64,000 nucleotides of DNA from contig NC_133157.1 of assembly GCF_040802235.1 (NCBI RefSeq), positions 34,562,501-34,626,500 of the forward strand. Reading direction: 5' to 3'. The notes below the pieces were generated by a model that ran no database searches, was not told the DNA's origin, and saw nothing but the letters and a program-made list of their open reading frames with translations. This DNA comes from Manis javanica (taxonomy: Eukaryota; Chordata; Mammalia; Pholidota; Manidae). Every line of letters starts with the position of its first letter. Within the stretch, counting starts at the first letter, position 1. A program made the position numbers and the translations under genes. Positions 3,231 through 60,983 of this stretch are shown here, in pieces.

Positions 3231-4208
3231 TTTTTCCTTTTTTTTATTAAGGTATTATTGATATACACCCTTATGAAGGTTTCACCTGAAAAAACAATGT
3301 GGTTACTACATTCACCCATATTATCAAGTCCCCCTCACGCCCCACTGCAGTCACTGTCCATCAGTGTAGTAAGATGCCACAGAGAGACTATTTGCCTTCT
3401 CTGAGCTACACTGTCTTCCCCATGACCTCCCCACACCATGTGCACCAATCATAATACCCCTCAATCCCCTTCTCCCTACCTCCCCACCTGCCTCCCACAC
3501 CCCTCCCCCCACACCCCTCCCCTTTGGTAACCACTAGTTCCTTCTTGGAGTCTGTGAATCTGCTGCTGTTTTATTCCTTCAGCTTTGCTTCATTGTTATA
3601 CTCTACAGATGAGGGAAATCATTAGCACTTGTCTTTCTCTGCCTGGTTTATTTCACTGAACATAGTATCTTCCAGCTCCATCCATGTTGCTGCAGATGGT
3701 AAGATTTGTTTCTTTCTTATGGCTGAATAATATTCCATTGTATATGTACCACCTCTTCTTTATCCATTCATCAACTGATGGACACTTAGGTTGCTTCCGT
3801 TTCTTGGCTATTGTAAATAATGCTGTGATAAGTGGTGCATGTGTCTTTTTGAATCTGAGAGCTTGTATTCTTTGGGTAAATTCCTAAGAGTGGAAGTCCT
3901 GCGTCAAATGGTATTTCTATTTTGAGTTTTTTAAGGAGCCTCCATATTGCTTTCCACAATGGTTGAACTAGCTTACATTCTCACCAGCAGTGTAGGAGGG
4001 TTCCCCTTTCTCCATATCCTCTCCAGCATTTGTTGTTCTTAGTCTTTTTGATGCTGGCCATCCTTACTGGTGTGAGGTGATATCTCATTGTGGTTTTAAT
4101 TTGCATTTCCCTGATGATTAGTGATGTGGAGCATCTTTTCATGTGCCTGTTGGCCATCTGAATTTCTTCTTTAGAGAATTGTCTCTTCATATCCTCTGCC
4201 CATTTTTT
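3231..4208 (-). mobile_element. Older LINE-1, 3' part (host of the nested younger LINE-1)
   Basis: This is the 3' untranslated region and end of ORF2 of a LINE-1 on the minus strand. On the minus strand 3981-4223 encodes the ORF2 motif [20 protein letters not shown]. It is interrupted at 4208, and the continuing ORF2 sequence resumes at 11361. CATCTGATT occurs just outside both outer ends (3222-3230 and 11665-11673) and may be its target duplication. Confidence 0.85.
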
Positions 4209-6035
4209 TTTTTGAGAGGGCATCTCTCAAATTTATTTCTCAAATGGTTGTTAACAACAATAAAATTCTGTATAGGGGACTCAATACTCAATGCACAATC
4301 ATTAATCCACCCCAAGCCTAATTCTCGTCATTCTCCAATCTTCTGAAGCATAACGAACAAGTTCTTACATGGTGAACAAATTCTTACATAGTGAATAAGT
4401 TCTTACATGGCATGGTGAACAGTACAAGGGCAGTCATCACAGAAACTTTCAGTTTTGATCACGCATTATGAACTATAAACAATCAGGTCAAATATGAATA
4501 TTCGTTTGATTTTTATACTTGATTTATATGTGGATCCCACATTTCTCCCTTTATTATTATTATTTTTTTATTTTTAATAAAATGCTGAAGTGGTAGGTAG
4601 ATGCAAGATAAAGGTAGAAAACATAGTTTAGTGTTATAAGAGAGCAATTGTAGATGATCAGATGTGTGCCTGTAGACTATGTGTTAATCCAAGCTAGACA
4701 AGGGCATTAAAACATCCACAGATGCAAAAGATTTCTCTCAAAACAGGGGGGATGAGGTTCTAAGCCTCACCACTGTTGATCCCCAATTTCTCACCTGATG
4801 GCCCCCCTGCGACTGTGCCTGTCTTAGGTTGTTCCTCCCTTGAGGAATCTTACCCGTCTCTGGCTAACCAGTCATCTTCCGGGGCCATACAGGGAGATGT
4901 AAAGTTGGTAAGTGAGAGAGAAGCCATATTGTTTGAAAAGGTTAGCTTTTTACTTCTTTGCAGATTTATGCCCTGTGGCTTCTATGCCCAGCATTTGTCT
5001 TGAGGTATCTTTACCACTTGGAGGGATTATGATACTCGGTAAATTAGATATGAGGCATGAATTCTATTTAAGGGTTGTAATTAGGAAGGAAGAAGAAAAG
5101 CTATAGAGGTAGCAGACGGAAGAAAACATGGGAGGATTGATTATTTCTTTGACATATCTTCTTGTAGAATAACTTAAGCATGTATAAGTTTTAAACTACT
5201 AATTAAATTGCATGCACACATTAACATAATAGGAATACAGTTACATGACCAAAGCAGATCTATAATTACCAGCCATCTCCAGTGAAGCCAAGAAAACCAG
5301 TTAGGCACCCTAGGCATTTGTGAAAATTTGTCTATGATATGATGGATACTGCCCACCTGTACTTGAACAGTCTGAGAGAAATCATACAAATTAAAACAAC
5401 CCATTCCTGGGAACTGTTCACATCCCATATGTTCTCTTAACAGTAGATAGTCTGTAGTTGTAAGATTTTGGAGTGCTACAACTTGCACTTCTCCTAATTC
5501 TTGGTTGAGTTCCAACAGTATAGATCCAGTCAAATTTGTTGTTTTACTGTATGCACAGGCCAGCTTAGGTATCTCCTTCATTCCAAAGGCAAGTCCAGGA
5601 ACCGGTGGGATGGATGCAGCTACAACTGCAGCATCACCTGGATCTTTGTTGAGGTTTTTTGATGATCATCTTCTGGTATGACTCTTCCAGAGAGTGCTGA
5701 TGTTGGAAGTTCTTCTTCATATCGTATCTTAGTTCATTTTCTGGGTAGCCAAATTAGGCTTTGATCCTCTGTATAAACACAAACAGACCCTTTGCCCACA
5801 CTTTGATATGCCCTTTATACCATTGTGTAGAACTCATTGGAGGTCACCACCCAGGAACTGCTTTTTTTTTTTTTAAGAGAAAGGAATATTATCAGAAAAG
5901 TGTACCTCCATAGCCGATCATCTGACACCCGTTAAGTGATCAAAATTAAGGATATTTAAAGCATGCATTAATCATTGATTTACAATTAGTTTTATCCTAT
6001 CAAGGAGTAATCCCCCTTTTCTTTCTTCTTTTTTT
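4209..6035 (-). mobile_element. Retroviral env-U3-R tail of LINE-1 copy 1
   Basis: Sense (minus) order: a 150-base segment after the LINE-1 body, an A-rich block (about 5863-5876), an envelope transmembrane-like region (5174-5620), a polypurine tract (4542-4552), then a U3-R LTR piece starting TGTGGGATCC-like at 4541 and ending at GCCCTCTC just before the poly(A) tail at 4209. An AATAAA signal precedes the end. There is no U5, as expected for a copy of polyadenylated retroviral RNA. Confidence 0.7.
5174..5620 (-). pseudogene. Envelope transmembrane-subunit-like fragment (in copy 1 tail)
   Basis: An open stretch on the minus strand contains a heptad-like region with VVALQN, then DYLLLREHMGCEQFPGMGCF. 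This is the layout of a retroviral TM ectodomain: leucine-rich helix, immunosuppressive-type region, then a Cys-x6-x-Cys loop in which one cysteine of the usual CC pair is Gly. A tryptophan-rich segment (NWFSWLHWRW) follows, as before a membrane anchor. It has no upstream surface subunit and no intact start, so it is a relic. Assignment is by motif reading only. Confidence 0.6.
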
Positions 6036-6235
6036 TTATCATCAATCTACACTTACATGAAGAATATTATTTTTACTAGGCTCTTCCCTATACCAGGTCC
6101 CCCCTATAAACCCCTTTACAGTCACTGTCCATCAGCATAGCAAAATGTTGTAGAATCACTACTTGTCTTCTCTGTGTTGTACAGCCCTTCCCTTTCTCTC
6201 TCCCCCACCCCCATGCATGCTAATCTTAATACCCC

Positions 6236-9200
6236 CTTTTTGTTCTATTGATGGTGTCTTTTGCTGTACAGAAGCTTTTCAGCTTAATATAGTCCCACTT
6301 GTTCATTTTTGCTGTTGTTTTCCTTGCCCGGGGAGATATGTTCAAGAAGAGGTCACTCATGATTTTGTCTAAAAGGTTTTTGCCTTTGTTTTTTTCTAAG
6401 AGTTTTATGGATTCATGACTTACATTCAGGTCTTTGATCCATTTTGAATTAACTTTTGTGTATGGGGTTAGACAATGGTCCAGTTTCATTCTCCTACATG
6501 TAGCTGTCCAGTTTTGCCAGCACCATCTGTTGAAGAGACTGTCATTTCGCCATTGTATGTCCATGGCTCCTTTATCAAATATTAGTTGACCGTATATGTT
6601 TGGGTTAATGTCTGGAGTCTCTAATCTTTTCCACTGGTCTGTGGCTCTGTTCTTGTGCCAGTACCAAATTGTCTTGACTACTATGGCTTTGTAGTAGAGC
6701 TTGAAGTTGGGGAGTGAAATCCCCCTTACTTTATTCTTCTTTCTCAGGATTGCTTTGGCTATTCAGGGTCTTTGGTGTTTCCATATGAATTTTTGAATTA
6801 TTTGTTCCAGTACATTGAAGAATGTTTCTGGTAATTTGATAGGGATTGCATCAAATCTGTAATTGCTTTGGGCAGGATGGCCATTTTGGTGATATTAATT
6901 CTTCCTAGCCAGGAGCATACAATGAGTTTCCATTTGTTAGTGTCCCCTTTAATTTCTCTTAAGAGTGACTTGTAGTTTTCAGGGTATAGGTCTTTCACTT
7001 CTTTGGTTAGGTTTATTCATAGGTATTTTATTCTTTTTGATGCAATTGTGAATGGAATTGTTTTCCTGATTTCTCTTTCTATTGGTTCATTGTTAGTGTA
7101 TAGGAAAGCTACAGATTTCTGTGTGTTAATTTTGTATCCTGCAACTTTGCTGTATTCCGATATCAGCTCTAGTAGTTTTGGAGTGGAGTCTTTAGGGTTT
7201 TTTTATGTACAATATCATATCATATGCAAATACTGACAGTTTAACTTCTTCTTTACCAATCTGGAATCCTTGTATTTCTTTGTTTTGTCTGATTGCCATT
7301 GCTAGGACCTCCAGTACTATGTTAAATAACAGTGGGGAGAGTGGGCATCCCTGTCTAGTTCCTGATCTCAGAGGAAAAGCTTTCAGCTTCTCAGTGTTCA
7401 GTATAATGTTGGCTGTGGGTTTATCATATATGGCCTTTATTATGTTGAGGTACTTGCCCTCTGTTCCCATTTTGCTGAGAGTTTTTATCATGAATGGATG
7501 TTGAATTTTGTCGAATGCTTTTTCAGCATCTATGGAGATGATCATGTGGTTTTTGTCTTTCTTTTTGTTGATGTGGTGAATGCTGTTGATGGATTTTTGA
7601 ATGTTGTACCATCCTTGCGTCCCTGGGATGAATCCCACTTGGTCATCGTGTATGATCCTTTTGATATACTGTTGAATTCTGTTTGCTAATATTTTATTGA
7701 GTATTTTTGCATCTACATTCATCAGGGATATTGGTCTGTAATTTTCTTTTTTGGTGGGGTCTTTGCCTGGTTTTGGTATTAGGGTGATGTTGGCTTCATA
7801 GAATGAATTTGGGAGTATTCCCTCCTCTTCTATTTTTTGGAAAACTTTAAGGAGAATGGGTATTATGTCTTCTCTGTGTGTCTGATAAAATTCCGAGATA
7901 AATCTGTCCAGCCCAGGGGTTTTGTTCTTGGGTAGTTTTTTGATTACCATTTCAATTTCTTTGCTCGTAATTGGTTTGTTTAACTTTTGTGTTTATTCCT
8001 TGGTCAGTCCTGGGAGGTTGTATTTTTCTAGGAAGTTGTCCATTTCTTCTAGGTTTTCCAGCTTGTTGGCATATAGGTTTTCATACTAGTCTTTAATAAT
8101 TCTTTGTATTTCTGTGGAGTCTGTCGTGATTTTTCCGTTCTCATTTCTGAATTTGTGTTGATTCTCTTTTTCTCTTAATAAGTTTGGCTAGAGGCTTATC
8201 TATTTTGTTTATTTTCTCAAAGAATCAGCTCTTGGTTTCGTTGATTTTTTCTATTGTTTTATTCTTCTCAATTTTGTTTATTTCTTCTCTGATCTTTATT
8301 ATGTCCCTCCTTCTGCAGACTTTAGGCCTCATTTGTTCTTCTTTTTCCAGTTTCAATAATTGTGATGTTAGACTATTCATTTGGGATTGTTCTTCCTTCT
8401 TCAAGTGTGCCTGAATCGCTATATACTTTCCTCTTAAGACTGCTTTCGCTGCGTCCCAAAGAAGTTGGGGCTTTGTGTTGTTGTCATTTGTTTCCATATA
8501 TTGCTTGATCTCTATTTTTATTTGTTCGTTGATCCATTGATTATTTAGGAGCATGTTGTTAAGTCTCCATGTGTTTGTGAGCCTTTTTGTTTTCTCTGTA
8601 GAATTTATTTCTAGTTTTATAACTTTGTGGTCTGCAAAATTGGTTGGTAGAACTTCAATATTTTGGAATTTACTGAGGCTCTTTTTGTGGGCTAGTATGT
8701 GGTCTATTCTGCAGAATGTTCCATGTGCACTTGAGAAGAATGTATATCCTGTTGCTTTTGGATGTAGAGTTCTATAGATGTCTATTAGGTCCATCTGTTC
8801 TAGTGTGTTGTTCAGTGCCTGTGTGTCCTTACTTATTTTCTGCCTGGAGGATCTATCCTTGGGTTGAGTGGTGTGTTGAAGTCTCCTAAAATGAATGCAT
8901 TGCAGTCTATTTCCCACTTTAGTTCTGGTAGTATTTGTTTCACATATGCTGGTGCTCCTGTGTTGGGTGCATATATATTTAGAATGGTTATATCCTCTTG
9001 TTGGACTGAGCCCTTTATCATTATGTAGTGTCCTTCTTTATCTTTTGTTACTTTCTTTGTTTTGAAGTGTATTTTGTGTGACATTAGTACTGCAACCTCT
9101 GCTTTCTTCTCGCTGTTGTTTGCCTGAAATATGTTTTTCCATCCCTTGACTTTTAGTCTGTGCATGTCTTTGGGTTTGAGGTGAGTTTCTTGTAAGCGGC

Positions 9201-10365: not shown

Positions 10366-11360
10366 GGTGATAGAGATAGTTTGCAGAGCTGGTACAAGTG
10401 ACGGCTGGAAGAGATTTCCTTCTTGTTGGTTTGTGGCCTTCCTCTCCTGTGAGAACAGCGACCTGTAGTGGCCTGTGCTGGGCAGCTGCGCGAGACATGG
10501 CTTCCACTTCTTGCCCGACTGCTATGGAGTTTATCTCCCCTGGTGCTGTGTGCGTGGCCTTGCTCCAGCTGCTGCTCCAAAATGGTGGAGCCCCATTAGA
10601 GGGGGAGCAGCGGGAGGTTGTTTATCTCCGTAAGGGGCCTCCGTGCTCCCTGTTGCCCAGGGAGTTAGAGTGCCCAGAGATCCCCAGATTCCCTGCCTCT
10701 GGACTAAGTGTCCTGCCCTGCCCCTTTAAGACTTCCAAAAAGCACTCTCCAAACCAAAACAACAACAGAAAAAAAAATTAAATAATTAATTAAAAAATAA
10801 AAATGCACGATTTTCTTTATCCTCAGGCGCTGGTCTCAGGCACCCGCTCACTGGTCTTGCTGCCCTGTTTCCCTAGTATTGGGGTCCCTTTCCCTTTAAG
10901 ACTTCCAAAAAGCACTCGCAAAAAAAAAAAAAAAAAAAAGGAAATGGCCACTCCTGTTTCTTTGTTCTCTGGCGTCGGCATCAGGCACCTGCTCACTGAT
11001 CCTGCCGCCCTGTTTCCTTAGTATCCAGGATGCCACGCATGCACTGTGTCTGTGCGCTGGTCCAGATGGCTGGGGCTGGGTGTTCTCAGCAGTCCTAGGC
11101 TCCTTCTCCCTCCCTGCTGACTCCTCTCCTCCCACCAGGAGCTGGGGGGAGGGGCGCTCGGGTTCCGCCGGGCCGGGGTTTGTATCTTATCCCCTTTGCG
11201 AGGTGCTGGGTTCTCGCAGGTGTGGATGTGGTCTGGATGTTGTCCTGTGTCCTCTGGTCTCTATTTTAGGAAGAGTTGTCTTTGTTATATTTTCATAGAT
11301 ATATGTGGTTTTGGGAGATTTCTGCTGCTCTACTCATGTCGCCATCTTGGCCCCGCCCCC
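10366..11360 (-). repeat. LINE-1 5' UTR of copy 1 with a short tandem-repeat array
   Basis: GC-rich promoter region of copy 1. The block CCCTTTAAGACTTCCAAAAAGCAC occurs twice (near 10721 and 10892), with CTGGTCTCAGGCACCCGCTC-type half-units between. This is a smaller version of the array in copy 2. Confidence 0.7.
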
Positions 11361-11664
11361 CTCTGCCCATTTTTTAATTGGGTTATTTGCTTTTTGGGGG
11401 TGGAGGCATGTGAGTTCTTTATATTTTGGATGTTAACCCCTTGTTGGATATGCCATTTACAAATACATTCTCCCATACTCTAGGATGCCTTTTTGTTCTG
11501 TTGATGGTGTCCTTTGCCGTACAGAAGCTTTTTAGTTTGATATAGTCCCACGTGTTCATTTATGCTTTTGTTTCCTTTGCTCGAGGAGATGTGTTCAGGA
11601 AGAAGTTGCTCATGTTTATATTCAGGAGATTTTTGCTTATGTTGTCTTCTAATAGTTTTAATCG
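11361..11664 (-). mobile_element. Older LINE-1, continuation of ORF2 after the nested insertion
   Basis: Sequence TTAATTGGGTTATTTG onward continues the ORF2 antisense sequence that stops at 4208. Removing the nested element and one duplication copy restores collinearity with other LINE-1s in the window (for example 45790-46080). Confidence 0.85.
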
Positions 11665-19344: not shown

Positions 19345-19358
19345 AAATATTAACTTTT

Positions 19359-21190
19359 TTTTTTTTGAGAGGGCATCTCTCATATTTATTGATCAAATGG
19401 TTGTTAACAACAATAAAATTCAGTATAGGGGGGTCAATGCTCAATGTACAATCATTAATCCATCTCAAGCCTAATTCTCATCAGTCTCCAATCTTCTGAA
19501 GCATAATGAACAAGTTCGTACATGGTGAACGAATTCTTACATAGTGAATAAATTCTTACATGGTGAACAGTACAAGGGCATTCATCACAGAAACTTTTGG
19601 TTTTGATCACGCATTATGAACTATAAACAATCAGGTCAAATATGAATATTTGTTTGATTTTTATACCTGATTTATATGTTGATCCCACATTTCTCCCTTT
19701 ATTATTATTATTATTTTTATTTTTAATAAAATGCTGAAGTGGTAGGTAGATGCAAGATAAAGGTAGAAAACATAGTTTAGTGCTGTAAGAGGGCAAATGT
19801 AGATGATCAGGTGTGTGCCTATGGACTAAGTATTAATCCAAGCTAGACAAGGGCAGCAAAACATCCACGGATGCAGAAGATTTCTCTCAAAGCAGGGGGG
19901 ATGAGGTTCTGAGCCTCACCTCTGTTGATCCCCAATTTCTCACCTGATGGCCCCCCTGCAACTGTGCCTGTCTTAGGTTGTTCCTCCCTTGAGGAATCTT
20001 ACCCGTCTCTGGCTAACCAGTCATCTTCCGGGGCCATACAGGGAAATGTAAAGTTGGTAAGTGAGAGAGAAGCCATATTGTTTGAAAAGGTTAGCTTTTT
20101 ACTTCTTTGCAGATTTATGCCCTGTGGCTTCTATGCCCAGCATTTGTCTTGAGGTATCTTTACAACCTGGAGGAATTATGATACTCGGTAAATTCGATAT
20201 GAGGCACGAATTCTATTTAAGGGTTGTAATTAGGAAGGAAGAAGAAAAGCTATAGAGGTAGCATATGGAAGAAAACATGGGAGGATTGATTATTTCTTTG
20301 ACATATCTTCTTGTAGAGTACCTTAAGTATGTATAGGTTTTAAACTAGTAACTAATTTGCACACACATTAACATAATAGGAATACGGTGACATAAACAAA
20401 GCAAATCTATAATTACCATCCATCTCCAGTGAAGCCAAGAAAACCATTAGGGCACCCTAGGCATTTGTGAAAATTTGTCTATGATATGATGGATATTGTC
20501 CTACTGTACTTGAACAGTCTGAGAAAAATCAGACAAATTAAAGCAGCCCATTTCTGGGATCTGTTCACATTCCATATGTTCTCTTAACCATAGATAGTCT
20601 ATAGTCATAAGATTTTGGAGTGCTACAACTTGCACCCTTCCCAACTCCTGGTTGAGTTCCAACAGTACAGATCCGGTCAAATTCGTTGTCTCACTGTATG
20701 CACATGCCAGCCTAGGCATCTCCCTCCTCATTCCAATGGCAAGTCCAGGAAATGGTGGGGTGGACGCAGCCACAACCGCAGCATTGCCCGGATCCCTGTG
20801 GAGGCTTTTTGATGATCATCCCCCGGCACGAGTCCTCCAGAGAGTGCTGATGCTGGAAGCTCCTCCTCATATCGTATCTTAGTTCATTTTCTGGGTATCC
20901 AAGCTAGGCCTTGATCTTCTGCATAGAAACAAACAGACCCTTTGCCCACACTTTGACATGCCCTCTATACCACTGTGCAGAACTCATTGGAGGTCAGCAC
21001 ACAGGGACTGCCTTTTTTTTTTTTTTATTAAGAGAAAGGAATATTATCAGAAAAGAGTACCTCCATAGCTGATCATCTGATACCCTTTAAGTGATCAACA
21101 TTAAGGATATTTAAAGCATGTGTTGATCTTTGATTTACCAATAGTTTTATCCTATCAAGGAGTAATCCCCCTTTTCTTTCTTTCTTTCTT
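19359..21190 (-). mobile_element. Retroviral env-U3-R tail of LINE-1 copy 2
   Basis: Same arrangement as copy 1. After the LINE-1 body an A-rich block (about 21175-21200) leads to a 150-base segment, a second A block (21011-21027), an envelope TM-like region (20501-20800), a polypurine tract AAAGGGAGAAA (19690-19700 on minus), then U3-R starting TGTGGGATC at 19689 and ending in GCCCTCTC followed by poly(A). AATAAA lies about 17 bases before the end. The A-rich blocks at each junction look like fossil poly(A) tails. Confidence 0.72.
20501..20800 (-). pseudogene. Envelope TM-like fragment (in copy 2 tail)
   Basis: Homologous to the fragment at 5174-5620. It carries NLTGSVLLELNQELGRVQVV followed by the DYLWLREHMECEQ region and CFNLSDFSQT, then an early stop near 20501 that removes the tryptophan-rich part seen in copy 1. 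Cysteine positions have decayed. Not functional as a protein. Confidence 0.6.
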
Positions 21191-21533
21191 TTTTTTTTTT
21201 TAATCTTTAATCTACATTTACATGAAGAGTACTATGTTTACTATGCTCTCCCCTATATCAGGTCCCCCCTAACAACCACATTACGGTTACTGTCCATCAG
21301 CTTAGCAAAATGTTGTAGAATCCCTACTTGTCCTCTCTGTATTGTGCAGCCCACCCTCCCCTTTCTCCCTCTACCCCATGCATGCTAATCTTAATAGCCC
21401 CCTTCTTCTTCCCCCCCCTTATCCCTCCCTGCCCACCCATCCTCCCCAGTTCCTTTCCCTTTGGTACCTGTTAGTCCATTTTTGGGTTCTGTAATTCCGC
21501 TGCTGTTTTGTTCCTTCAGGTTTTCCTTTGTTC

Positions 21534-23593
21534 TTATACTCCTCGGATGAGTGAAATCATTTGATATTTCTCTTTCTCCGCTTGGCTGATTTCACTGAGC
21601 ATAATACTGTCCAGCTCCATCCATGTTGCTGCAAATGGTTGGATTTTTCCACTTCTTATGGCTGAGTAGTATTCCATTGTGTATGTGTACCACATCTTCT
21701 TTATCCATTCATCTACTGATGGACATTTAGGTTGCTTCCAGTTCTTGGCTATTGTAAATAGTGCTGCGATAAACATAGGGGTACATCTGTCTCTCTCAAA
21801 CTTGATTGCTGCGTTCTTAGGGTAAATTCCTAGAAGTGGAATTCCTGGGTCAAATGGTAGGTCTGTTTTGAGCATTTTGATGAACCTCCAAACTGCTTTT
21901 CACAATGGTTGAACCAATTTACATTCCCACCAGCAGTGTAGGAGGGTTCCCCTTTCTCCACAGCCTCGCCAACATTTGTTGTTGTTTGTCTTTTGGATGG
22001 CAGCTATCCTTACTGGTGTGAGGTGATACCTCATTGTAGTTTTAATTTGCATTTCTCTGATAATTAGTGATGTGGAGCATCTTTTCATGTGTCTGTTGGC
22101 CATCTGTATTTCTTTTTTAGAGAACTGTCTGTTCAGTTCCTCTGCCCAGTTTTTAATTGGGTTATTTGTTTTTTGTTCGTTGAGGCATGTGAGCTCTTTA
22201 TATATTCTGGACGTCAAGCCTTTATCGGATCTGTCATTTTCAAATATATTCTCCCATACTGTAGGGTTCCTTTTTGTTCTATTGATGGTGTCTTTCGCTG
22301 TACAGAAGCTTTTCAGCTTAATGTAGTCCCACTTGCTCATTTTTGCTGTTGTTTTCCTTGCCCAGGGAGATATGTTCAAGAAGAGGTCACTCATGTTTAT
22401 GTCTAAGAGGTTTTTGCATATGTTTTTTTCCAAAAGTTTAATGGTTTCATGACCTACATTCAGGTCTTTGATCCATTTTGAGTTTACCTTTGTATATGGG
22501 GTTAGACAATGGTCCAGTTTCATTCTCCTACACGTAGCTGTCCAGTTTTGCCAACAACATCTGTTGAAGAGACTGTCATTTCCCCATTGTATGTCCATGG
22601 CTCCTTTATCAAATATTAATTGACCATATTTGTTTGGGTTAATTTCTGGAGTCTCTAATCTGTTCCACTGGTCTGTGGCTCTGTTCTTGTGCCAGTACCA
22701 AATTGTCTTGATTACTATGGCTTTGTAGTAGAGCTTGAAGTTGGGGAGTGAGATCCCCCCTACTTTGTTCTTCTTTTTCAGGATTGCTTTGGCTATTCGG
22801 GGTCTTTGGTGTTTCCATATGAATTTTTAAATTATTTGTTCCAATTCATTGAAGAATGTTGCTGGTAATTTGATAGGGATTGCATCAAATCTGTATATTG
22901 CTTTGGGCAGGATGGCCATTTTGACGATATTAATTCTTCCTAGCCATGAGCATGGGATGAGTTTCCATTTATTAGTGTCCCCTTTAATTTCTCTTAAGAG
23001 TGACTTGTAGTTTTCAGAGTATAAGTCTTTCACTTCTTTGCTTAGGTTTATTCCTAGGTATTTTATTCTATTTGATGCAATGGTGAATGGAATTGTTTTC
23101 CTGATTTCTCTTTCTATTGATTCATTGTTAGTGTATAGGAAAGCTACAGATTTCTGTGTGTTAATTTTGTATCCTGCACCTTTGCTGTATTCCGATATCA
23201 GTTCTAGTAGTTTTGGAGTGGAGTCTTTAGGGTTTTTTATGTACAGTATCATATCATCTGCAAATAGTGACAGTTTAACTTCTTCTTTACCAATCTGGAT
23301 TCCTTGTATTTCTTTGTTTTGTCTGATTGCCATTGCTAGGACCTCCAGTACTATGTTAAATAACAGTGGGGAGAGTGGGCATCCCTGTTTTGTTCCCGAT
23401 CTCAGAGGAAAAGCTTTCAGCTTCTCAGTGTTCAGTATAATGTTGGCTGTGGGTTTATCATATATGGCCTTTATTATGTTGAGGTACTTGCCCTCTATTC
23501 CCATTTTGCTGAGAGTTTTTATCATGAATGGATGTTGAATTTTGTCAAATGCTTTTTCAGCATCTATGGAGATGATCATGTGGTTTTTGTCTT

Positions 23594-23626
<33 letters not shown>

Positions 23627-25488
23627 ACGATAACATGGAAAGATTGATTATTTCTTTGACATATCTTCTTGTAGAGTAACTTAAGCATGTATAGGTTTTG
23701 TCTTTCTTTTTGTTTATGTGGCGGATGATGTTGATGGATTTTTGAATGTTGTACCATCCTTGCATCCCTGGGATGAACCCCACTTGGTCATGGTGTATGA
23801 TCCTTTTGATATACTGTTGAATTCTGTTTGCTAATATTTTATTGAGTATTTTTGCATCTACATTCATCAGGGATATTGGTCTGTAATTTTCTTTTTTGGT
23901 GGGGTCTTTGCCTGGTTTTGGTATTAGGGTGATGTTGGCTTCATAGAATAAGTTTAGGAGTATTCCCTCTTCTTCTATTTTGTGGAACACTTTAAGGAGA
24001 ATGGGTATTATGTCTTCTCTGTGTGTCTGATAAAATTCTGAGGTAAATCCATCCGGCCCTGGGGTTTTGTTCTTGGGTAGTTTTTTGATTACCTTTTCAA
24101 TTTCTTTGCTCATAATTGGTTTGTTTAACTTTTGTGTTTCTTCCTTGGTCAGTCTTGGGAGGTTGTATTTTTCTAGGAAGTTGTCCATTTCTTCTAGGTT
24201 TTCCAGCTTGTTGGCATATAGGTTTTCATAGTAGTCTTTAATAATTCTTTGTATTTCTGTGGAGTCTGTCGTGATTTTTCCGTTCTCATTTCTGAATTTG
24301 TGTTGATTCTCTTTTTCTCTTAATAAGTTTGGCTAGAGGCTTATCTATTTTGTTTATTTTCTCAAAGAACCAGCTCTTGTTTTCGTTGATTTTTGCTATT
24401 GTTTTATTCTTCTCAATTTTGTTTATTTCTTCTCTGATCTTTATTATGTCCCTCCTTCTGCGGACTTTAGGCCTCATTTGTTCTTCTTTTTCCAGTTTCA
24501 ATAATTGTGATGTTAGACTATTCATTTGGGATTGTTCTTCCTTCTTCAAGTGTGCCTGGATCGCTATATACTTTCCTCTTAAGACTGCTTTCACTGCGTC
24601 CCACAAAAGTTGGGGCTTTGTGTTGTTGTTGTCATTTGTTTCTATATATTCCTTGATCTCTATTTTGATTTGTTCATTGATCCATTGATTATTTAGTAGC
24701 ATGTTGTTAAGCCTCCATGTGTTTGTGATCCTTTTTGTTTTCTCTGTAGAATTTATTTCTAGTTTTATACCTTTGTGGTCTGAAAAATTGGTTGGTAGAA
24801 TTTCAATATTTTGGAATTTACTGAGGCTCTTTTTGTGAGCTAGTATGTGGTCCTTTCTGGAGAATGTTCCATGTGCACTTGAGAAGAATGTATATCCTGT
24901 TGCTTTGGGATGTAGAGTTCTATAGATGTCTATTAGGTCCATCTGTTCTAGTGTGTTGTTCAGTGCCTGTGTGTCCTTACTTATTTTCTGCCCGGTGGAT
25001 CTATCCTTTGCGGTGAGTGGTGTGTTGAAGTCTCCTACAATGAATGCATTGCAGTCTATTTCCCTCTTTAGTTCTGTTAGTATTTGCTTCACATATGCTG
25101 GTGCTCCTGTATTGGGTGCATATATATTTAGAACGGGTATATCCTCTTGTTGGACTGAGCCCTTTATCATTATGTAGTATCCTTCTTTATCTCTTATTAC
25201 TTTCTTTGTTTTGAAGTCTATTTTGTGTGATATTAGTACTGCAACCCCTGCTTTCTTCTCACTGTTGTTTGCCTGAAATATGTTTTTCCATCCCTTGACT
25301 TTTAGTCTGTGCTTGTCTTTGGGTTTAAGGTGAGTTTCTTGTAAGCGGCATATAGATGGGTCTTGCTTTTTTATCCATTCTATTACTCTGTGTCTTTTGA
25401 TTGGTGCATTAAGTCCATTTACATTTAGGGTGACTATTGAGAGATATGTACTTATTGCCATTGCAGGCTTTAAATTCGTGGTTACCAA
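21534..25488 (-). pseudogene. LINE-1 ORF2 of copy 2, frameshifted
   Basis: Minus-strand pieces in order: 25488-24286 (400 codons, complete endonuclease with QETH, GDFNTPL and SDHKG), 24188-22827 (453 codons, reverse transcriptase with [12 protein letters not shown] and FADDMILYI), 22598-21900 and 21875-21534 (C-terminal zinc-knuckle region with [13 protein letters not shown]). Known role: nicks target DNA and reverse-transcribes LINE-1 RNA in place. A 111-base in-frame insertion (23601-23711) lies just before the IDAEKAFD catalytic motif and adds a poly-lysine run. Confidence 0.9.
23601..23695 (-). mobile_element. Tiny retrotransposed fragment of the LINE-1 tail inside ORF2
   Basis: A poly(T) run of about 25 followed by 70 bases nearly identical to the tail at 20271-20335 interrupts the reverse transcriptase. 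It is flanked by the 16-base direct repeat TTTTGTCTTTCTTTTT (23585-23600 and 23696-23711), the normal mark of LINE-1-mediated insertion. Insert plus duplication is 111 bases, so the reading frame stays open. Confidence 0.85.
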
Positions 25489-25549
25489 ACGTTCAAGGTT
25501 AGCCTCTTTAGTATCTTACTGCCTAACTTAGCTCGCTTATTGAGCTGTT

Positions 25550-26542
25550 ATATACACTGTCTGGAGATTCTTTTCTTCTCTCCCTTCTTATTCCTCCTCC
25601 TCCCTTCTTCATATGTTGTGTGTTTTGTTCTGTGTTCTTTTTAGGAGTGCTCCCATCTAGAGCAGTCCCTGTAAGATGCCCTGTAGAGGTGGTTTGTGGG
25701 AAGCAAAATCCCTCAGCTTTTGCTTGTCTAGGAATTGCTTAATCCCGCCATCATATTTAAATGATAGTCATGCTGGATACAGTATCCTTGGTTCAAGGCC
25801 CTTCTGTTTCATTGTATTAAATATATCATGCCATTCTCTTCTGGCCTGTAGGGTTTCTGTCGAGAAGTCTGATGTTAGCCTGATGGGTTTTCCTTTATAG
25901 GTGACCTTTTTCTCTCTAGCTGCCTTTAAAACTCTTTCCTTGTCCTTGATCCTTGCCATTTTAATTACTATGTGTCTTGGTGTTTCCTCCTTGGATCCTT
26001 TCTGTTGGGGGTTCTGTGTAATTCCATGGTCTGTTCGATTATTTCCTCCCCCAGTTTGGGGACGTTTTCAGCAATTATTTCTTCAAAGAGACTTTCTATC
26101 CCTTTTCCTCTTTCTTCTTCTTCTGGTACCCCTATAATACGAATATTATTCCTTTTGGCTTGGTCACATAGTTCTCTTAGTGTTGTTTCATTCCTGGAGA
26201 TCCTTTTATCTCTATGTCAGCTTCTATACGTTCCTGTTCTCTGGCTTCTATTCCTTCAATGGCCTCTTGCATCTTATCCATTCTGCTTATAAATCCTTCC
26301 AGGGATTGTTTCACTTCTGTGATCTCCTTCCTGACATCTGTGCTGTCCCTCCAGACTTCATCCCATTGCTCTTGCATTTTTCTCTGCATCTCATCCCATT
26401 GCTCTGGCATTTTTCTCTGCATTTCTGTGAGCATGTTCATGATTTTTATTTTGAATTCTTTTTCAGGAGGACTGGTTAGGTCTGTCTCCTTCTCAGGTGT
26501 TGTCTCTGTGATGTTTGTCTGCCTGTAGTTTTGCCTTTTCAT
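25550..26542 (-). pseudogene. LINE-1 ORF1 of copy 2, broken
   Basis: It starts MKRQNYRQTNITETTPEKE at 26542, followed by a coiled coil in which an 11-residue unit is doubled (MQRKMPEQWDE, MQRKMQEQWDE; copy 1 has one unit). The C-terminal part has KERVLKAAREKKVTYKGKP and TLQARREWHDIF (25768-25959). A frame break near 26.17 kb separates the halves. The left edge is approximate. Confidence 0.8.
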
Positions 26543-28140
26543 GGTGATAGAGATAGTTTGCAGAGCTGGTACAAGTGACCGCTGGAAGAGCTTCCCTTCT
26601 TGTTGGTTTGTGGCCTTCCTCTCCTGGGACAATAGCGACCTCTAGTGGCTTATGCTTGGCAGCTGTGCGCAGGCAGGGCTTCTGCTACCTGCCCGTTTGC
26701 TATGGAGTTTATCTCCGCTGTTGCTGTGGGCATGGCCTGGCTGGGGCTGCTCCTTCAAAGTGGTGGAGCCCCGTTGGAGGGGGAGCGGCTGCGAGGCTAT
26801 TTATCTCCGTAAGGGGCCTCTGTGCTCCCTGTTGTCCAGGGGGTTAGAGTGCCCAGAGATCCCCAGATTCCCTGCCTCTGGTCTAAGTGTCTTGTCCTGC
26901 CCCTTTAAGACTTCCAAAAAGCACTCTCCAAACAACAACAGCAACAATGAGAGAGGGAGCAGAAGAAAAAAAAAAAAAAAAAGGAAAATACACGTGATTT
27001 TTTTTTTTTTTCCTCAGGCGCTGGTCCCAGGCACCCGCTCACTGGTCCTGCTGCCTTGCCTCCCTAGCATCGGGGTCCCTGTCCCTTCAAGGCTTCCAAA
27101 AAGCACCCGCCCACCGGTCCCGCAGGGAAAAACGCGCGATATTCTTTGTCTTCAGGCGCCAGTCCCAGGCACCCGCTCACTGGTCCTGCTGCTCTGCCTC
27201 CCTCGCACCAGGGTCCCTGTCCCTTTAAGGCTTCCAAAAAGCACTCGCCAAAAAGAGAACAAAAACGGGGGAAAACGCGCGATTTCCTCCATCCTCAGGC
27301 GCCAGTCTCAGGCACCTGCCTACTGGTCCGGCAGGGAAAAATGCTCGATATTCTTTGTCCTCAGGTGCCGGTCCCAGGCACCCGCTCTCCGGTCCTGCTG
27401 CTCTGCCTCCCTAGCACCAGGGTCCCTGTCCCTTTAAGGCTTCCAAAAAGCACTCGCCAAAAAGAGAAAAAAAAAGGGGAAAAACACGCGATTTCCTCTG
27501 TCCTCAGGCGCCGGTCTCAGGTACCCGCCCTCCGGTCCCGCAGGGAAAAACACGGGATATTCTTTGTCCTCAGGCACCGGTCCCAGGCACCTGCTCACCG
27601 GTCCCGCCGCCCTGCCTCCCTAGCAACAGGGTCCCTGTCCCTTTAAGGCTTCCAAAACGCACTCGCCAAAAAGAGAAAAAAAAAAGGGGGAAAAGCTCGC
27701 GATTTCCTCCGTCCTCAGGCGCTGGTCTCAGGCACCCGCCCATCAGTCCCATAGGGAAAAACGCGCGATAATCTTTGTCCTCAGGCGCCGGTCCCAGGCA
27801 CCCGCTCACCAGTCCCGCCGCCCTGCCTCCCTAGCAATGGGGTCCCTGTCCCTTTAAGGCTTCCAAAAAGCACTTGCCAAAAAAAAAACCGCTCCGGTTT
27901 CTTTCCACCCTCCGGGAGCTGGGGGGAGGGGCGCTCGGGTCCCGCCGGGCCGGGGCTTGTATCTTACCCCTTTCGCAAGGCGCTGGGTTCTTGCAGGTGT
28001 GGATGTGGTCTGGATGTTGTCCTGTGTCCTCTGGTCTCTATTTTAGGAAGAGTTTTCTTTGTTATATTTTCATAGCTCTATGTGTTTTTGGGAGGAGATT
28101 TCCACTGCTCTACTCACGCCGCCATCCTGGCTCCGCCTGG
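26543..28140 (-). repeat. LINE-1 5' UTR of copy 2 with tandem promoter monomers
   Basis: GC-rich region in which CCCTTTAAGGCTTCCAAAA recurs near 26899, 27081, 27222, 27431, 27640 and 27850. The last four are 209-210 bases apart, so at least three complete monomers are present plus partial ones. Each monomer contains two related half-units (CCTCAGGCGCCGGTCCCAGG type) and an A-rich spacer. The array ends in a unique segment with the YY1-like start. Confidence 0.85.
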
Positions 28141-33065: not shown

Positions 33066-33280
33066 CGATTAACATGTATAGTATGGGGGGTGCACGGGGA
33101 GGGCTGTGCAACACAGAGAAGACAAGTAGTGATTTTACAGCATCATACTATGTTGATGGACAGTGACTGTGAACGGGTATGTGGGGGGGACTTGGTGAAA
33201 GGGGGAGCCTAGTAAACATAATGTCCTTCATGTAATTGTAGATTAACGATACCAAAATAAAACTAATAAAAAAAAAACGG
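33066..33280 (+). mobile_element. Severely 5'-truncated LINE-1 3' end
   Basis: Sequence from GGGGGGTGCACGGGG to AATAAAACTAATAAAAAAAAA is the 3' UTR and tail of the same LINE-1 type found in antisense at 33433. GAAGTACTT before (33057-33065) and after (from about 33281) suggests a target duplication. Confidence 0.75.
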
Positions 33281-33432
33281 AAGTACTTGACTACATATGG
33301 AAATATAAAATTTTCAGTATTGGTCAAACATACACAAGATCTACAATTGGCTTAATAAGTACACAATTCTCAAAATTTACTACTTATTGAAAATACTTAT
33401 ATTTCTAGTTAGTTTTTCCTAGCTATAATCTT

Positions 33433-34489
33433 TTTTTTTATATCATTAATCTACAATTACATGAGGAACATTATGTTCACTAGACTCCACCCATCACCAA
33501 GTTCCTCCCACATACCCCATTACAGTCACTGTCCATCAGCTTAGTAAGATGTTGTAGAATCACTACTTGTCTTCTCTGTGTTGTACAGCCCTCCCCGTGC
33601 CCACCCCACATTACACATGCTAATCATAATGCCCTCTTTCCTCCCCCCACCCCTTATCCTTCTCTTCCCACCCATCCTCCCCAGTTCCTTTCCCTTTGGT
33701 AACTGAGTCCATTCTTGGGTTCTGTGATTCTGCTGCCGTTTTGATCCTTCAGTTTTTTCTTTGTTCTTATACTCCACAGATGAGTGAAATGATTTGGTAC
33801 TTGTCTTTCTCTGCCTGGCTTATTTCACTGAGCATAATACCCTCTAGCTCCATCCATGTTGTTGCAAATGGTAGGATTTGTTTTCTTCTTATGGCTGAAT
33901 AATATTCCATTGTGTATATGTACCACATCTTCTTTATCCATTCGTCAACTGATGGACACTTAGGTTGCTTCCATTTCTTGGCTATTGTAAATGGTGCTGC
34001 GATAAACATAGGGGTGCATATGTCTTTTTCAAACTGGGCTGCTGCATTCTAAAGGTAAATTCCTAGGAGTGGAATTCCTGGGTCAAATGGTATTTCTATT
34101 TTGAGTTTTTTAAGGAACCTCCATACTGCTTTCCACAATGGTTGAACTAATTTACATTCCCACCAGCAGTGTAGGAGGGTTCCCCTTTCTCCACAGCCTT
34201 GCCAACATTTGTTGTTGTTTGTCTTTTGGATGGTGGTGATCCTTACTGGTGTGAGGTGATATCTCATTGTGGTTTTAATTTGCATTTCTCTGATTATTAA
34301 TGATGTGGAGCATTTTTCATGTGTCTGTTGGCCATCTGAATTTCTTCTTTGGAGAACTGTCTATTCAGCTCCTCTGCCCATTTTTTGTTTGGATTATTTG
34401 CTTTTTGTTTGTTGAGGTGCATGAGCTCTTTATATATTTTGGATGTCAACCCTTTATCAGATCTGTCATTTATGAATATATTCTCCCTC
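33433..34489 (-). mobile_element. 5'-truncated LINE-1, minus strand, without retroviral tail
   Basis: Contains the normal LINE-1 3' UTR and the end of ORF2 (minus-strand frames with MFIAAPFTIAKKWKQPKCPS and [16 protein letters not shown]). Flanked by GCTATAATCTT (33422-33432 and 34493-34503). It ends at the standard LINE-1 3' end, showing the ancestral state without the retroviral extension. Confidence 0.9.
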
Positions 34490-34685: not shown

Positions 34686-35334
34686 TGTCTTGCCAATGGG
34701 TTTCTGCCCTGGGCAAGTTCGCTATGGATTCAATGTGACCAAAGATATGACTGCAAAATGTTCTTGTGGTGAAAGGGTTATACCCAACTTTATTTCCAGG
34801 TGGTAGGTCAGTCACTAAAATCCCCTTCACTCAGAGTGAATTTGCATGCAGCAAGCCGGTCTCTGCCTCTGGGCCCTTCTGTCCACACAGCCATCCTCTG
34901 GGCCTCTCTGCCTGCACAGCCATCCCACACACCTGTCCTCTGGGCCTCTCTGCACAGCCATCCCACATAGCCATCCTCTGGCCCTCTGTCCTCGGTGCTG
35001 CCACCACTCCAGCCTCTGCTCTGCTCTCCTGCTGTCTTGCAGCTGTGCCAACAAGTCACACTCAGAGCACTGGGCGGGGCTCTTTATATAGAGTCAACAG
35101 CCATGTATTGCCCAAAGATCTCTGTGACTTTGCCATTTAAACAGTGTGAATTAACATCAACTTGCCCGGGGTGGAAAATTTCAAAATCAGTGTTAATGTT
35201 CATTTTCTTTAAAAGTTTGGGTGATTACATGGATGTATTTGGTTTGTAAAAATTCAAACTGAATTTCAAACAGTGAGCTAGTCAACCAGGTTCAGGTGAG
35301 AATCCTGGCCACAGGAACTCTCATTTTATCCACA
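34686..35334 (-). repeat. 3' LTR of the endogenous retrovirus, carrying a 150-base foreign insert
   Basis: Aligns with the 5' LTR over its length except for about 158 extra bases at 35113-35270. The TATA-like segment TATATAAAGAGC (sense) is at about 35083-35094. Ends are TG...CA. Confidence 0.75.
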
Positions 35335-36638: not shown

Positions 36639-37134
36639 TGTCTTGCCAATGGGTTTCAGCCCCAGGCAAGTTCACTATGGATTCAATATGACCAAAGAAA
36701 TGACCGCAAAACATTCTTGGGGTGAAAGGGTTATACCCAAGTTTATTTCCAGGTGGCAGGTCAGTCACTAAAATTCCCTTCACTCAGAGTGAGTTTGCAT
36801 GCAGCAAGCCAGTCTCTGCCTCTGGGCCCCTCTGTCTGTACAGCCATCCTCTGGGCTCTGCCTGCACAGCCATCCCAAAGAGCCATTCTCTGGGCCTCTC
36901 TGCACAGTTGTCCCACACAGCCATCCTCTGAACCTCGGTCCTCGGTGCTGCCACCACTCCAGCCTCTGCTCTGCTCTCCTGCAGTCTTGCAGCCGTGCCA
37001 CCATGTCATGCCCAGAGCACTGGGCGGAGCTCTTTGTAGAGTCAGCAGCCATGTATTGCCCACAGGTGTGCAGTGAGCTAGTCAACCAGGGCCAGGTGAG
37101 AATCCTGGCCACAGGTACTCTCATTTTATCCACA
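36639..37134 (-). repeat. 5' LTR of the endogenous retrovirus
   Basis: 496 bases, sense start TGTGGATAAAATGAGAGTAC and end GGCAAGACA. It lacks the insert found in its partner and is followed in sense by the candidate serine-tRNA primer site. Confidence 0.78.
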
Positions 37135-44796: not shown

Positions 44797-47053
44797 GTGT
44801 TTTTTTCCCCCCTTCAGACATTTTATTTATTTGTTTGTTTGTTTGTTTGTTTTCAGTATCATTAATCTACAATTACATGACCGACATTATGGTTACTAGA
44901 CTCCCCCCATCATCAAGTCCCTACCCAATACCCCATTACAGTCACTGTCCATCAGCGTAGTAAGATGATGTAGAATCACTACTTCTCTTCTCTGTGTTGT
45001 ACAGCCCTACCCATGCCCCCAACCTCCTATATTATGTCTGCTAATAGTAATGCCCCTTTTCCTCCCTTATCCCTCCCTTCCCACCCACCCTCCCCAGTCT
45101 CTTTCCCTTTGGTAATTGTTAGTCCATTCTTGGGTTCTCTGAGTCTGCTGCTGTTTTGTTCCTTCAGTTTTTGCTTTGTTCTTATACTCCACAGATGAGT
45201 GAAGTCATTTGATACTTGTCTTTCTCTGCCTGGCTTATTTCATTGAGCATAATACTCTATAGCCCCATCCATGTTGTTGCAAATGGTAGGATTTGTTTTC
45301 TTCTTATGGCTGAATAATATTCCATTGTGTATGTGAACCACATCTTCTTTATCCATTCGTCAACTGATGGACACTTAGGTTGCTTCCATTTCTTGGCTAT
45401 TGTAAATGGTGCTGCGATAAACATAGGGGTGCATATGTCTTTTTCAAACTGGGCTGCTGCATTCTAAAGGTAAATTCCTAGGAGTGGAATTCCTGGGTCA
45501 AATGGTATTTCTATTTTGAGTTTTTTAAGGAACCTCCATACTGCTTTCCACAATGGTTGAACTAATTTACATTCCCACCAGCAGTGTAGGAGGGTTCCCC
45601 TTTCTCCACATCCTCACCAACATTTGTTGTTGTTTGTCTTTTGGATGGTGGTGATCCTTCCTGGTGTGAGGTGATATCTCATTGTGGTTTTAATTTACAT
45701 TTCTCTGATGACTAGTGATGTGGAGCATTTTTCATGTGCCTGTTGACCATCTGAATTTCTTCTTTGGAGAAGTGTCTGTTCAGATCCTCTGCCCATTTTT
45801 TAATTGGATTATTTGCTTTTTGTTTGTTGAGGTGCATGAGCTCTTTATATATTTTGCATGTCAATCCTTTATTGGATATGTCATTTATGAATATATTCTC
45901 CCATACTGTAGGATGTCTTTTTGTTCTTCTGATGATGTCCTTTGCTGTACAGAAGCTTTTCAGCTTGATAGTCCCACTTGTTCATCTGTGTTTTTTTTTC
46001 CCTTGCCCAGGGGGATATGTTCATGAAGAAGTTGCTCATGTTTATGTCCAAGAGATTTTTGCCTATGTTTTTTTCTAAGAGTTTTATGGTTTCATGACGT
46101 ACATTCAAGTCTTTGATCCATTTGAATTTACTTTTGTGTATGGGGTTAGACAATGATCCGGTTTCATTCTCTTACATGTAGCTGTCCAATTTTGCCAACA
46201 CCAGCTGTTGAAGAGGCTGTCATTTCCACATTGTATATCCATGGCTCCTTTATCAAATATTAATTGACCGTATATGTTTGGGTTAATATCTGGACTCTCC
46301 ATTCTGTTCCACTGGTCTGTGGATCTATTCTTGTGCCAGTACCAAATTTTCTTGATTACTGTGGCTTTGTAGTAAAGCTTGAAGTTGGGAAGTGAGATCC
46401 ACCCTGCTTTATTCTTCCTTCTCAGGATTGCTTTGGCTGTTTGGGGTCTTTTGTGGTTCCATATGAATTTTAAAACTATTTGTTCCAGTTCGTTGAAGAA
46501 TACTATTGGTATTTTGATAGGGAATGCATTGAATCTGGGGATTGCTTTAGGCAGAATGGCCATTTTGACATTATTAATTCTTCCTAGTCAAGAGCATGGG
46601 ATGAATTTCTGTTTGTTCGTGTCCTCTTTAATTTCTCTTAGGAGTGTCTTGTAGTTTTCAGGATATAGGTCTTTCACTTCTGTGGTTAGGTTTATTCCTA
46701 GGTATTTTATTCTTTGTGATGCAATTGTGAATGGAATTGTTTTCCTGATTTCTCTTTCTGTTACCTCATCGTTAGTGTATAGGAAAGCAACAGATATCTG
46801 TGTATTAATTTTGTATCCTGCAACTTTGCTGAATTCAGATATTAGTTCTAGTAGTTTTGGAATGGAGTCTTTAGGGTTTTTTCTGTACAATATCATGTCA
46901 TCTGCAAATACTAACAGTTTGACTTCTTCTTTACCAATCTGGATGCCTTGTATTTCTTTGTGTTGTCTGATTGCCATGGCTAGGACCTCCAGTATTGTGT
47001 TGAATAACAGTGGGGAGAGTGGGCATCCCTGTTTTGTTCCTGATCTTATGTGA
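44797..47053 (-). mobile_element. 5'-truncated LINE-1 inserted in a MIR, minus strand
   Basis: 2.26 kb of LINE-1 3' half, antisense to GNE, in the intron after the first shared coding exon. Flanked by the 16-base duplication TCTACCACTTAGTTTT (44781-44796 and 47054-47069). Minus-strand frames include the reverse transcriptase motif FADDMILY and the C-terminal LLYSKGHHQ region, all frameshifted. It starts with a (TTTG)n run at 44826-44853 and has no retroviral tail. Confidence 0.92.
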
Positions 47054-50560: not shown

Positions 50561-53389
<2,829 letters not shown>

Positions 53390-54765: not shown

Positions 54766-56654
<1,889 letters not shown>

Positions 56655-56969
56655 TGACTAGGCTTGATACATACATAGGAATTACTAGAAGGTATGCATG
56701 TGTCAGTACTGGCATATATTTTTATGAAGAAGTGAATGAAGGAGGTTAATGACCAGTTGTAGCTTAAAATCTATAAATAGCACACAGTGATTACCAAATT
56801 GTTTTAGGGCTCTAACTTACATGTTTATTGTCTTTGTAATATCAGAAACTAAGAGTTTCATAGTTAATTATGGTCTTTGATGGCTGTGTTTAAGAGAGAA
56901 TGTTATTGAATATGTTCTAGGTATATGAATGCTAGTCTTTCATTTTCTGGACCCAGTAGAATCTCTTTA

Positions 56970-60306: not shown

Positions 60307-60983
60307 CGGAAGATGACTGGTTAGCCAGACGGGTAAGATTCCTCAAGGGAGGAACAACCTAAGACAGGCACAGTTGCAGGGGGGGCCATCAGGTGAGAAA
60401 TTGGGGATCAACAGTGGTGAGGTTTAGAACCTCACCCCCCCTGTTTTGAGAGAAATCTTCCGCATCCGTGGATGTTTTAATGCCCCTGTCTAGCTTGGAT
60501 TAACACATAGTCTACAGGCACACACCTGATCATCTACATTTGCTCTCTTATAACACTAAACTATGTTTTCTACCTTTATCTTGCATCCACCTACCACTTC
60601 AGTATTTTATTAAAAATAAAAAAAATAATAATAATAAAGGGAGAAATGTGGGATCCACATATAAATCAAGTATAAAAATCAAACAAATATTCATATTTGA
60701 CCTGATTGTTTATAGTTCATAATGTGTGATCAAAACCGAAAGTTTCTGTGATGACTGTCCTTGTACTGTTCACAATGTAAGAATTTATTCACTATGTAAG
60801 AATTTGTTCACCATGTAAGAACTTGTTTGTTATGCTTCAGACGATTGGAGACTGATGAGAATTAGGCTTGGGGTGGATTAATGATTGTGCATTGAGCATT
60901 GAGTCCCCTATACAGAATTTTATTGTTGTTAACAACCATTTGATCAATAAATATGAGAGATGCCCTCTCAAAAAAAAAAAAAA
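60307..60983 (+). mobile_element. Truncated insertion of the retroviral tail (copy 3) in a GNE intron
   Basis: About 660 bases plus poly(A), same direction as GNE, flanked by AAAATAGTTTAGGTCA (60291-60306 and about 60980-60995). It matches the ends of the tails at 4209 and 19359 in inverse orientation: polypurine tract AAAGGGAGAAA (60636-60646), U3 start TGTGGGATCC (60647), AATAAA and the terminus GCCCTCTC (60969). It brings a strong poly(A) signal in the sense direction of GNE. Confidence 0.9.

Follow-up and report, generated by a model that had tools for sequence, protein, structure and literature searches.

Two LINE-1 elements of Manis javanica share a retroviral-type 3' end, probably acquired by read-through transduction

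Results

We analysed 64,000 nucleotides of the Manis javanica genome (NCBI RefSeq assembly GCF_040802235.1, contig NC_133157.1, positions 34,562,501 to 34,626,500 of the forward strand; hereafter the window, to which all coordinates refer). Two long interspersed element 1 (LINE-1, L1) copies in it, e1 and e2, continue past the L1 3' end into the same 1.80 kb of apparently retroviral sequence. Because the L1/tail junction and the poly(A) site coincide in the two, whereas their target sites and target duplications do not, the claim of the initial annotation of this DNA that the chimera moved as a unit is supported. The arrangement probably arose by a read-through 3' transduction, which would have become the heritable 3' end of an L1 lineage.

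Both elements lie on the minus strand, with complete 5' ends that correspond to each other. According to self-comparison of the window and the target duplications, e1 extends from 11360 to its last non-A base at 4214, and e2 from 28140 to 19367. The 3' block shared in the self-comparison (4203-6245 and 19356-21411, 90% identity) includes about 0.2 kb of L1 3' untranslated region (3'UTR). The tail beyond the L1 end measures 1802 bp in e1 (4214-6015, minus strand) and 1804 bp in e2 (19367-21170, minus strand). The junction is identical in the two elements and lies in the same A-rich run at the L1 3' end, which in e2 (21200-21171) separates the 3'UTR from the tail; a second poly(A) stands at the end of the tail, and target duplications surround the whole unit. 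The annotated presence of the same 1.8 kb beyond both L1 3' ends is borne out by this junction and by an alignment over the full length of the tail at 90% identity.

Target duplications, taken as the longest exact repeats found by script, measure 14-17 bp at all four tail insertions of the window (e1, e2 and the tail-only insertions e3 and e4 described below). The duplication of e1 is AAAAAATGGGCAGAGG, the ends of which extend into the poly(A) stretch and into the row of G's at the L1 5' end; that of e2 is AAAAGTTAATATTT. The host of e1 is an older L1, split into 3293-4208 and 11360-11660, and the flanks of e2 are unrelated to those of e1. The initial annotation had described two nearly complete LINE-1s with their own target duplications. 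The duplications are present and the coordinates agree within a few bases, but completeness was loosely put: 869 bp around the end of open reading frame 2 (ORF2) and the 3'UTR are missing from e1, and both ORF1 and ORF2 are fragmented in the two elements. The deletion in e1 (equivalents of 6236 and 22270) leaves ORF2 fused directly to the terminal 0.2 kb of the L1 3'UTR, with a short G-rich match at the point of fusion. The e2 element retains a 5'UTR monomer array of 3.7 copies of a 209-bp unit (27103-27883, minus strand, by repeat analysis), an endonuclease part of ORF2 (24286-25488, minus strand; Exo_endo_phos, 2.6e-20) and a reverse transcriptase part (22827-24188, minus strand; RVT_1, 1.7e-44), the frame of which takes in an insert at 23626-23699.

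The tail appears to be retroviral, a conclusion supported by the similarity of one segment to the transmembrane subunit (TM) of retroviral envelopes and by the order of the segments that follow. The TM remnant of e1 is an open frame of 163 amino acids (5174-5665, minus strand); its counterpart in e2, delimited by alignment to e1, has a broken frame (20345-20880, minus strand). Used as a single sequence against PDB, the e1 frame matches avian leukosis TM chains with an E-value of 3.9e-8. A profile of 19 sequences, comprising the piece from the window and 18 of the 30 relatives described below, recovers these chains with 4.9e-16; filovirus GP2, syncytin-2 and additional retroviral TMs stand lower in its match list. 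Pfam gave no match for the window's own TM pieces; among the 19 profile members, three match TLV_coat (best 0.0015) and two match GP41 (0.094). In both tails the first cysteine of the CC pair is replaced by glycine.

In e2, about 0.65 kb with no assigned feature follows the TM remnant, and then a polypurine tract, AAAGGGAGAAA (19690-19700, minus strand, read in the sequence), and 323 bp of putative U3 and R regions of a long terminal repeat (LTR; 19367-19689, minus strand), which start with TG at 19689 and hold AATAAA at 19390-19385; the poly(A) begins at 19366. The U3-R of e1 (4214-4541, minus strand) likewise starts with TG (4541-4540) immediately after a polypurine tract and has AATAAA at 4237-4232. 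The succession of polypurine tract, TG start and AATAAA before the poly(A), read directly in the sequence, keeps the retroviral order. Thus the annotated elements of the tail, namely an envelope TM-like segment, a polypurine tract, a TG-starting U3 and an R ending at a poly(A) site with AATAAA, were all recovered, the first by its similarity to retroviral TM and the others by reading in the right order. U5 is missing from the tail, as expected if the tail corresponds to an RNA 3' end, and the window holds no other copy in the form of a full LTR with U5. No piece of the surface subunit (SU) was recognised in the tail. Upstream of the TM remnant, the stretch at 20880-21170 of e2 (minus strand) may be the end of an integrase; this was judged by eye from the reading frames, and the integrase-like pieces gave no match in Pfam searches of the tail pieces or in a PDB search with two pieces. 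Scans with Rfam and for tRNAs returned nothing useful.

A second A-run lies within both tails at corresponding positions, 21030-21013 (minus strand) in e2; the e2 copy alone has AATAAA in front of it. It could be a trace of serial transduction, or merely an A-run that has grown.

A BLAST search of both tails against the window detected the tail at e1, e2, e3 and e4 only, the last two of which the initial annotation did not list. The e3 insertion (60307-60981, plus strand) is 5' truncated, comprises the 3'-terminal 0.67 kb of tail sequence, ends at the same poly(A) site and is flanked by the duplication AAAAATAGTTTAGGTCA; such tail-only truncations are probably descendants of the tailed lineage. 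The e4 insertion (23626-23699, minus strand) is a 74-bp tail fragment with a long poly(A), 92% like the tail and nested in ORF2 of e2, where the insert occupies 111 bp; its target duplication, AAAAAGAAAGACAAAA, has 16 bp. Its 3' end is internal to the tail, about 20 bases past an AATAAT-like sequence identified by eye, so that e4 looks like the product of a prematurely polyadenylated RNA cleaved at a cryptic poly(A) site. Since e4 interrupts ORF2, it is likelier to have been inserted after e2 than into the L1 parent of e2.

The tail is absent at three other L1 3' ends of the window, those at 33431 and 44846 and that of an older L1 ending at about 3270. Inspection of the first two confirms the earlier statement that ordinary L1s of the same type occur here without it. 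The ORF2 sequences of e1 and e2 are 94.7% identical, and either is 89.0% identical to that of the untailed element at 44846. The integrase-like part of the tail is 90.7% identical between e1 and e2, and the two final segments reach 95.6% and 93.2%; the TM remnant is lower, at 87.2%, and 31 of its 68 differences come from one substitution type.

Relatives of the tail were found outside the window. A protein search of metagenomic proteins with the TM piece retained 30 of 42 candidates as relatives (E ≤0.01). In 28 of the 30 the longest contig is below 1.3 kb, and the set looks like a diverged host repeat family caught in ENA sequence data. Among the 26 relatives that cover the cysteine site, the ancestral-looking CC is kept in eight and replaced by GC, as in e1 and e2, in 11. 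These counts indicate an envelope family that extends beyond the chimera, and a retroviral donor that was probably already defective. The antisense frame that crosses the L1/tail junction, used as query, recovered one protein, P0031, among six candidates. It starts in the tail and continues into the L1 3'UTR through the same junction while differing from both e1 and e2, and therefore the chimera exists outside the window. With P0031 itself as query, three proteins were retained among 207 candidates: P0031, P0032, which is an ordinary L1 end, and P0033, which stops short of the L1 end. A search of viral contigs by protein for the parent provirus yielded three stretches that matched the pattern, none of which was confirmed; nothing was found with three DNA patterns in viral contigs and one in genome contigs.

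Relative to e1, the e2 tail has a cluster of A-to-G changes (20636-21012, minus strand). Between 21071 and 20572, e2 has G for an A of e1 at 38 sites and A for a G at five; elsewhere in the tail (13 bins) the corresponding counts are six and 14. From 20990 to 20640, 34 of 119 A's are changed. A 5' G neighbour is found at one of these 34 and at 25 of the 85 unchanged A's (Fisher P 0.0007), and a 3' G neighbour at 14 of 34 and 12 of 85 (Fisher P 0.002), both P values being descriptive, as the region was picked after inspection. Fifteen codons differ by A/G alone; more relatives side with e1 at 13 of them and with e2 at one, and one is a tie. This suggests that G is the derived state in e2, with the reservation that the search for relatives started from the e1 frame and is biased towards e1-like proteins; the e1-like lysines are also present in three of the most diverged relatives, P0016, P0023 and P0030. 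We set aside an APOBEC-type G-to-A change in e1, given this 13 of 15 and the mixed bases that follow the G's of e2.

Another relative, P0008, has the e2 state at an I-to-M, a K-to-R, a K-to-E and an I-to-V site, the last of which is shared by four others; a doubly changed Glu codon reads Gly in P0008 and Arg in e2. A chimeric RNA was probably edited, reverse-transcribed and inserted, and the edited copy probably left descendants. With one junction common to e1 and e2, the formation of the chimera would precede the editing, unless conversion mixed the copies.

The rest of the window is rich in L1. At 33067-33625 two L1 3' ends adjoin, inverted relative to each other. A direct duplication of about 430 bp (34686-35117 and 36639-37065, 89% identity) carries a 38-bp tandem repeat in each copy. 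Two plus-strand ORFs, 51492-51956 and 56319-56657, match Epimerase_2 (UDP-GlcNAc 2-epimerase; 9e-32 and 4e-12); in a mammal, we presume that these are probably exons of GNE.

Discussion

The probable course of events begins with an L1 that would have come to share its orientation with a defective endogenous retrovirus, lying within the 3' part of that retrovirus or immediately upstream of it; the simplest route would be insertion into an A-rich stretch of the integrase region. A transcript of this L1 would then pass its own poly(A) signal, cross the TM remnant and U3, and be cleaved at the retroviral poly(A) site in R. Retrotransposition of the read-through RNA by the L1 machinery would constitute a 3' transduction, after which the retroviral terminator may have served as the normal 3' end of the copies descended from it, which would comprise e1 and e2, the source copy of P0031 and probably truncated copies such as e3. 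Read-through is favoured because it accounts at once for an L1 A-run followed by retroviral sequence that stops at R, all within one pair of duplications. Also in its favour are the closer match in ORF2 between e1 and e2 than of either to the untailed element at 44846, the junction copy P0031, and e3, which ends at the same base with a duplication of its own. We infer the formation by read-through, the use of the tail as a terminator over several generations and the autonomy of a master element, which must be inferred because both tailed L1s in the window are broken.

A template switch would lead to a similar structure: the L1 enzyme would copy a retroviral mRNA from R and jump to the poly(A) of an L1 RNA, and the resulting chimera would become the master. 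Retroviral mRNAs do end at R and the junction does hold an L1 A-run, and L1 is described as forming chimeras with diverse RNAs, template switching being among the routes (PMC13174262). Yet this route requires a jump into a poly(A) tail followed by full-length copying of the L1, and the GAAA repeats at the junction appear to fit a genomic A-rich target at least equally well; we regard it as unlikely. A free family of SINE-R-like retroposons, with e1 and e2 descending from one chance fusion of little further success, would agree with the tail-only nature of e3 and e4, half of the window's insertions, and with the 30 envelope relatives in metagenomes, which have no known linkage to L1 and in part retain CC. 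However, e3 and e4 may be 5'-truncated chimeras, as expected of L1 insertions, and P0031 adds a further copy of the junction, which makes such a family very improbable.

The position of e1 and e2 within 24 kb of each other could point to segmental duplication or gene conversion as the source of the second tailed L1. Their flanks and target duplications are distinct, e1 is nested in another L1, and the two copies diverge by 3-13% in segments outside the 5'UTR and 3'UTR, so that we give this explanation almost no credence; segmental duplication is ruled out by the flanks and target duplications, which do not contradict a partial conversion between tailed copies.

Several observations weigh against the read-through origin. 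In the L1 3'UTR, where the region compared is G-rich and gapped, e1 and e2 are only 84% identical, e1 is 81% identical to the untailed element at 33431 and e2 74%; with these identities a mosaic history is possible. A point in favour of read-through is that near the L1 end the poly(A) signal of e1 is GATAAA only and that of e2 is ATTAAA, while the tail offers AATAAA about 20 bases before its poly(A). This argument from weak signals is not uniform, because the A-rich ends of two of the three untailed L1s, those at 44846 and about 3270, contain or adjoin AATAAA; the third, at 33431, has only TATAAA. A template switch would leave nearly the same product as read-through, and our searches revealed neither a source locus nor a parent provirus nor an intact tailed L1.

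A more far-reaching version of the read-through origin, which we put forward tentatively and hold to be somewhat doubtful, is an autonomous L1 lineage that has a permanent retroviral terminator, sheds tail-only copies resembling SINE-R (a sequence of envelope plus LTR origin), and includes a jumping sublineage founded by an edited copy. If true, an L1 that stably ends in a retroviral terminator would provide a direct case in which LINEs and retroviruses exchange modules. It would also be a natural model of a possible origin of SVA-like composites by read-through into a retroviral end and subsequent tail-only truncation. Such an element raises the testable question of whether a strong borrowed poly(A) site helps an L1 with a weak signal of its own. 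The edited sublineage, if real, would represent RNA editing fixed in germline DNA and transmitted to later copies.

No L1 lineage with a retroviral 3' end was found among the matches listed from titles and abstract beginnings of open-licence PMC papers; Repbase or Dfam may list the family. A search of open-licence PMC papers for edited retroelements in DNA led nowhere. The cluster in e2 resembles ADAR-type editing clusters in its grouped A-to-G changes and few 5' G neighbours, the scarcity of 5' G being given as an ADAR signature in PMC2873906; unlike the clusters described there, it lies in genomic copies of a retroelement and was seemingly inherited by P0008. The TM remnant shares with avian leukosis-type and gamma-type retroviral TMs the core including the cysteine region, and differs from them in being a remnant only, with CC changed to GC in both tails and no SU recognised.

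The closest parallel in structure is the L1 3' transduction, described in PMC4859970 as downstream sequence after the L1 A-run with a second poly(A), serial cases included. The elements e1 and e2 share with it the sequence after the A-run, the second poly(A) and one pair of duplications around the whole, and, as in transduction lineages, the same carried sequence recurs in more than one insertion (e1, e2 and, at the same junction, P0031). They differ from the transductions described there in that the carried sequence is a retroviral 3' end with its own terminator, common to several copies. The combination of an L1 with a foreign RNA inserted as one unit is also found in a catalogue of L1 chimeras from the human lineage, whose named cases, mostly joined at the 5' side of L1, include small RNAs, Alu and mRNA; neither "ERV" nor "endogenous retrovirus" appears in its main text (PMC13174262).

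The initial annotation had likened the chimera to SVA-like composites. SVA, as described in PMC7353768, ends in retroviral sequence and is mobilised by L1, and the likeness holds for the kind of captured material, a 3' end derived from an endogenous retrovirus. It does not extend to membership. SVA is non-autonomous and is built of hexamer, Alu-like and variable number tandem repeat (VNTR) parts, whereas here the front is a near-full-length L1; no such parts were noticed in the tailed L1s, in which no dedicated Alu or VNTR search was made. In place of a body with no ORFs of its own, as in SVA, they have an L1 body with matches to reverse transcriptase and endonuclease. The retroviruses also differ, that of SVA being HERV-K, while the TM found here is closest to that of avian leukosis virus.

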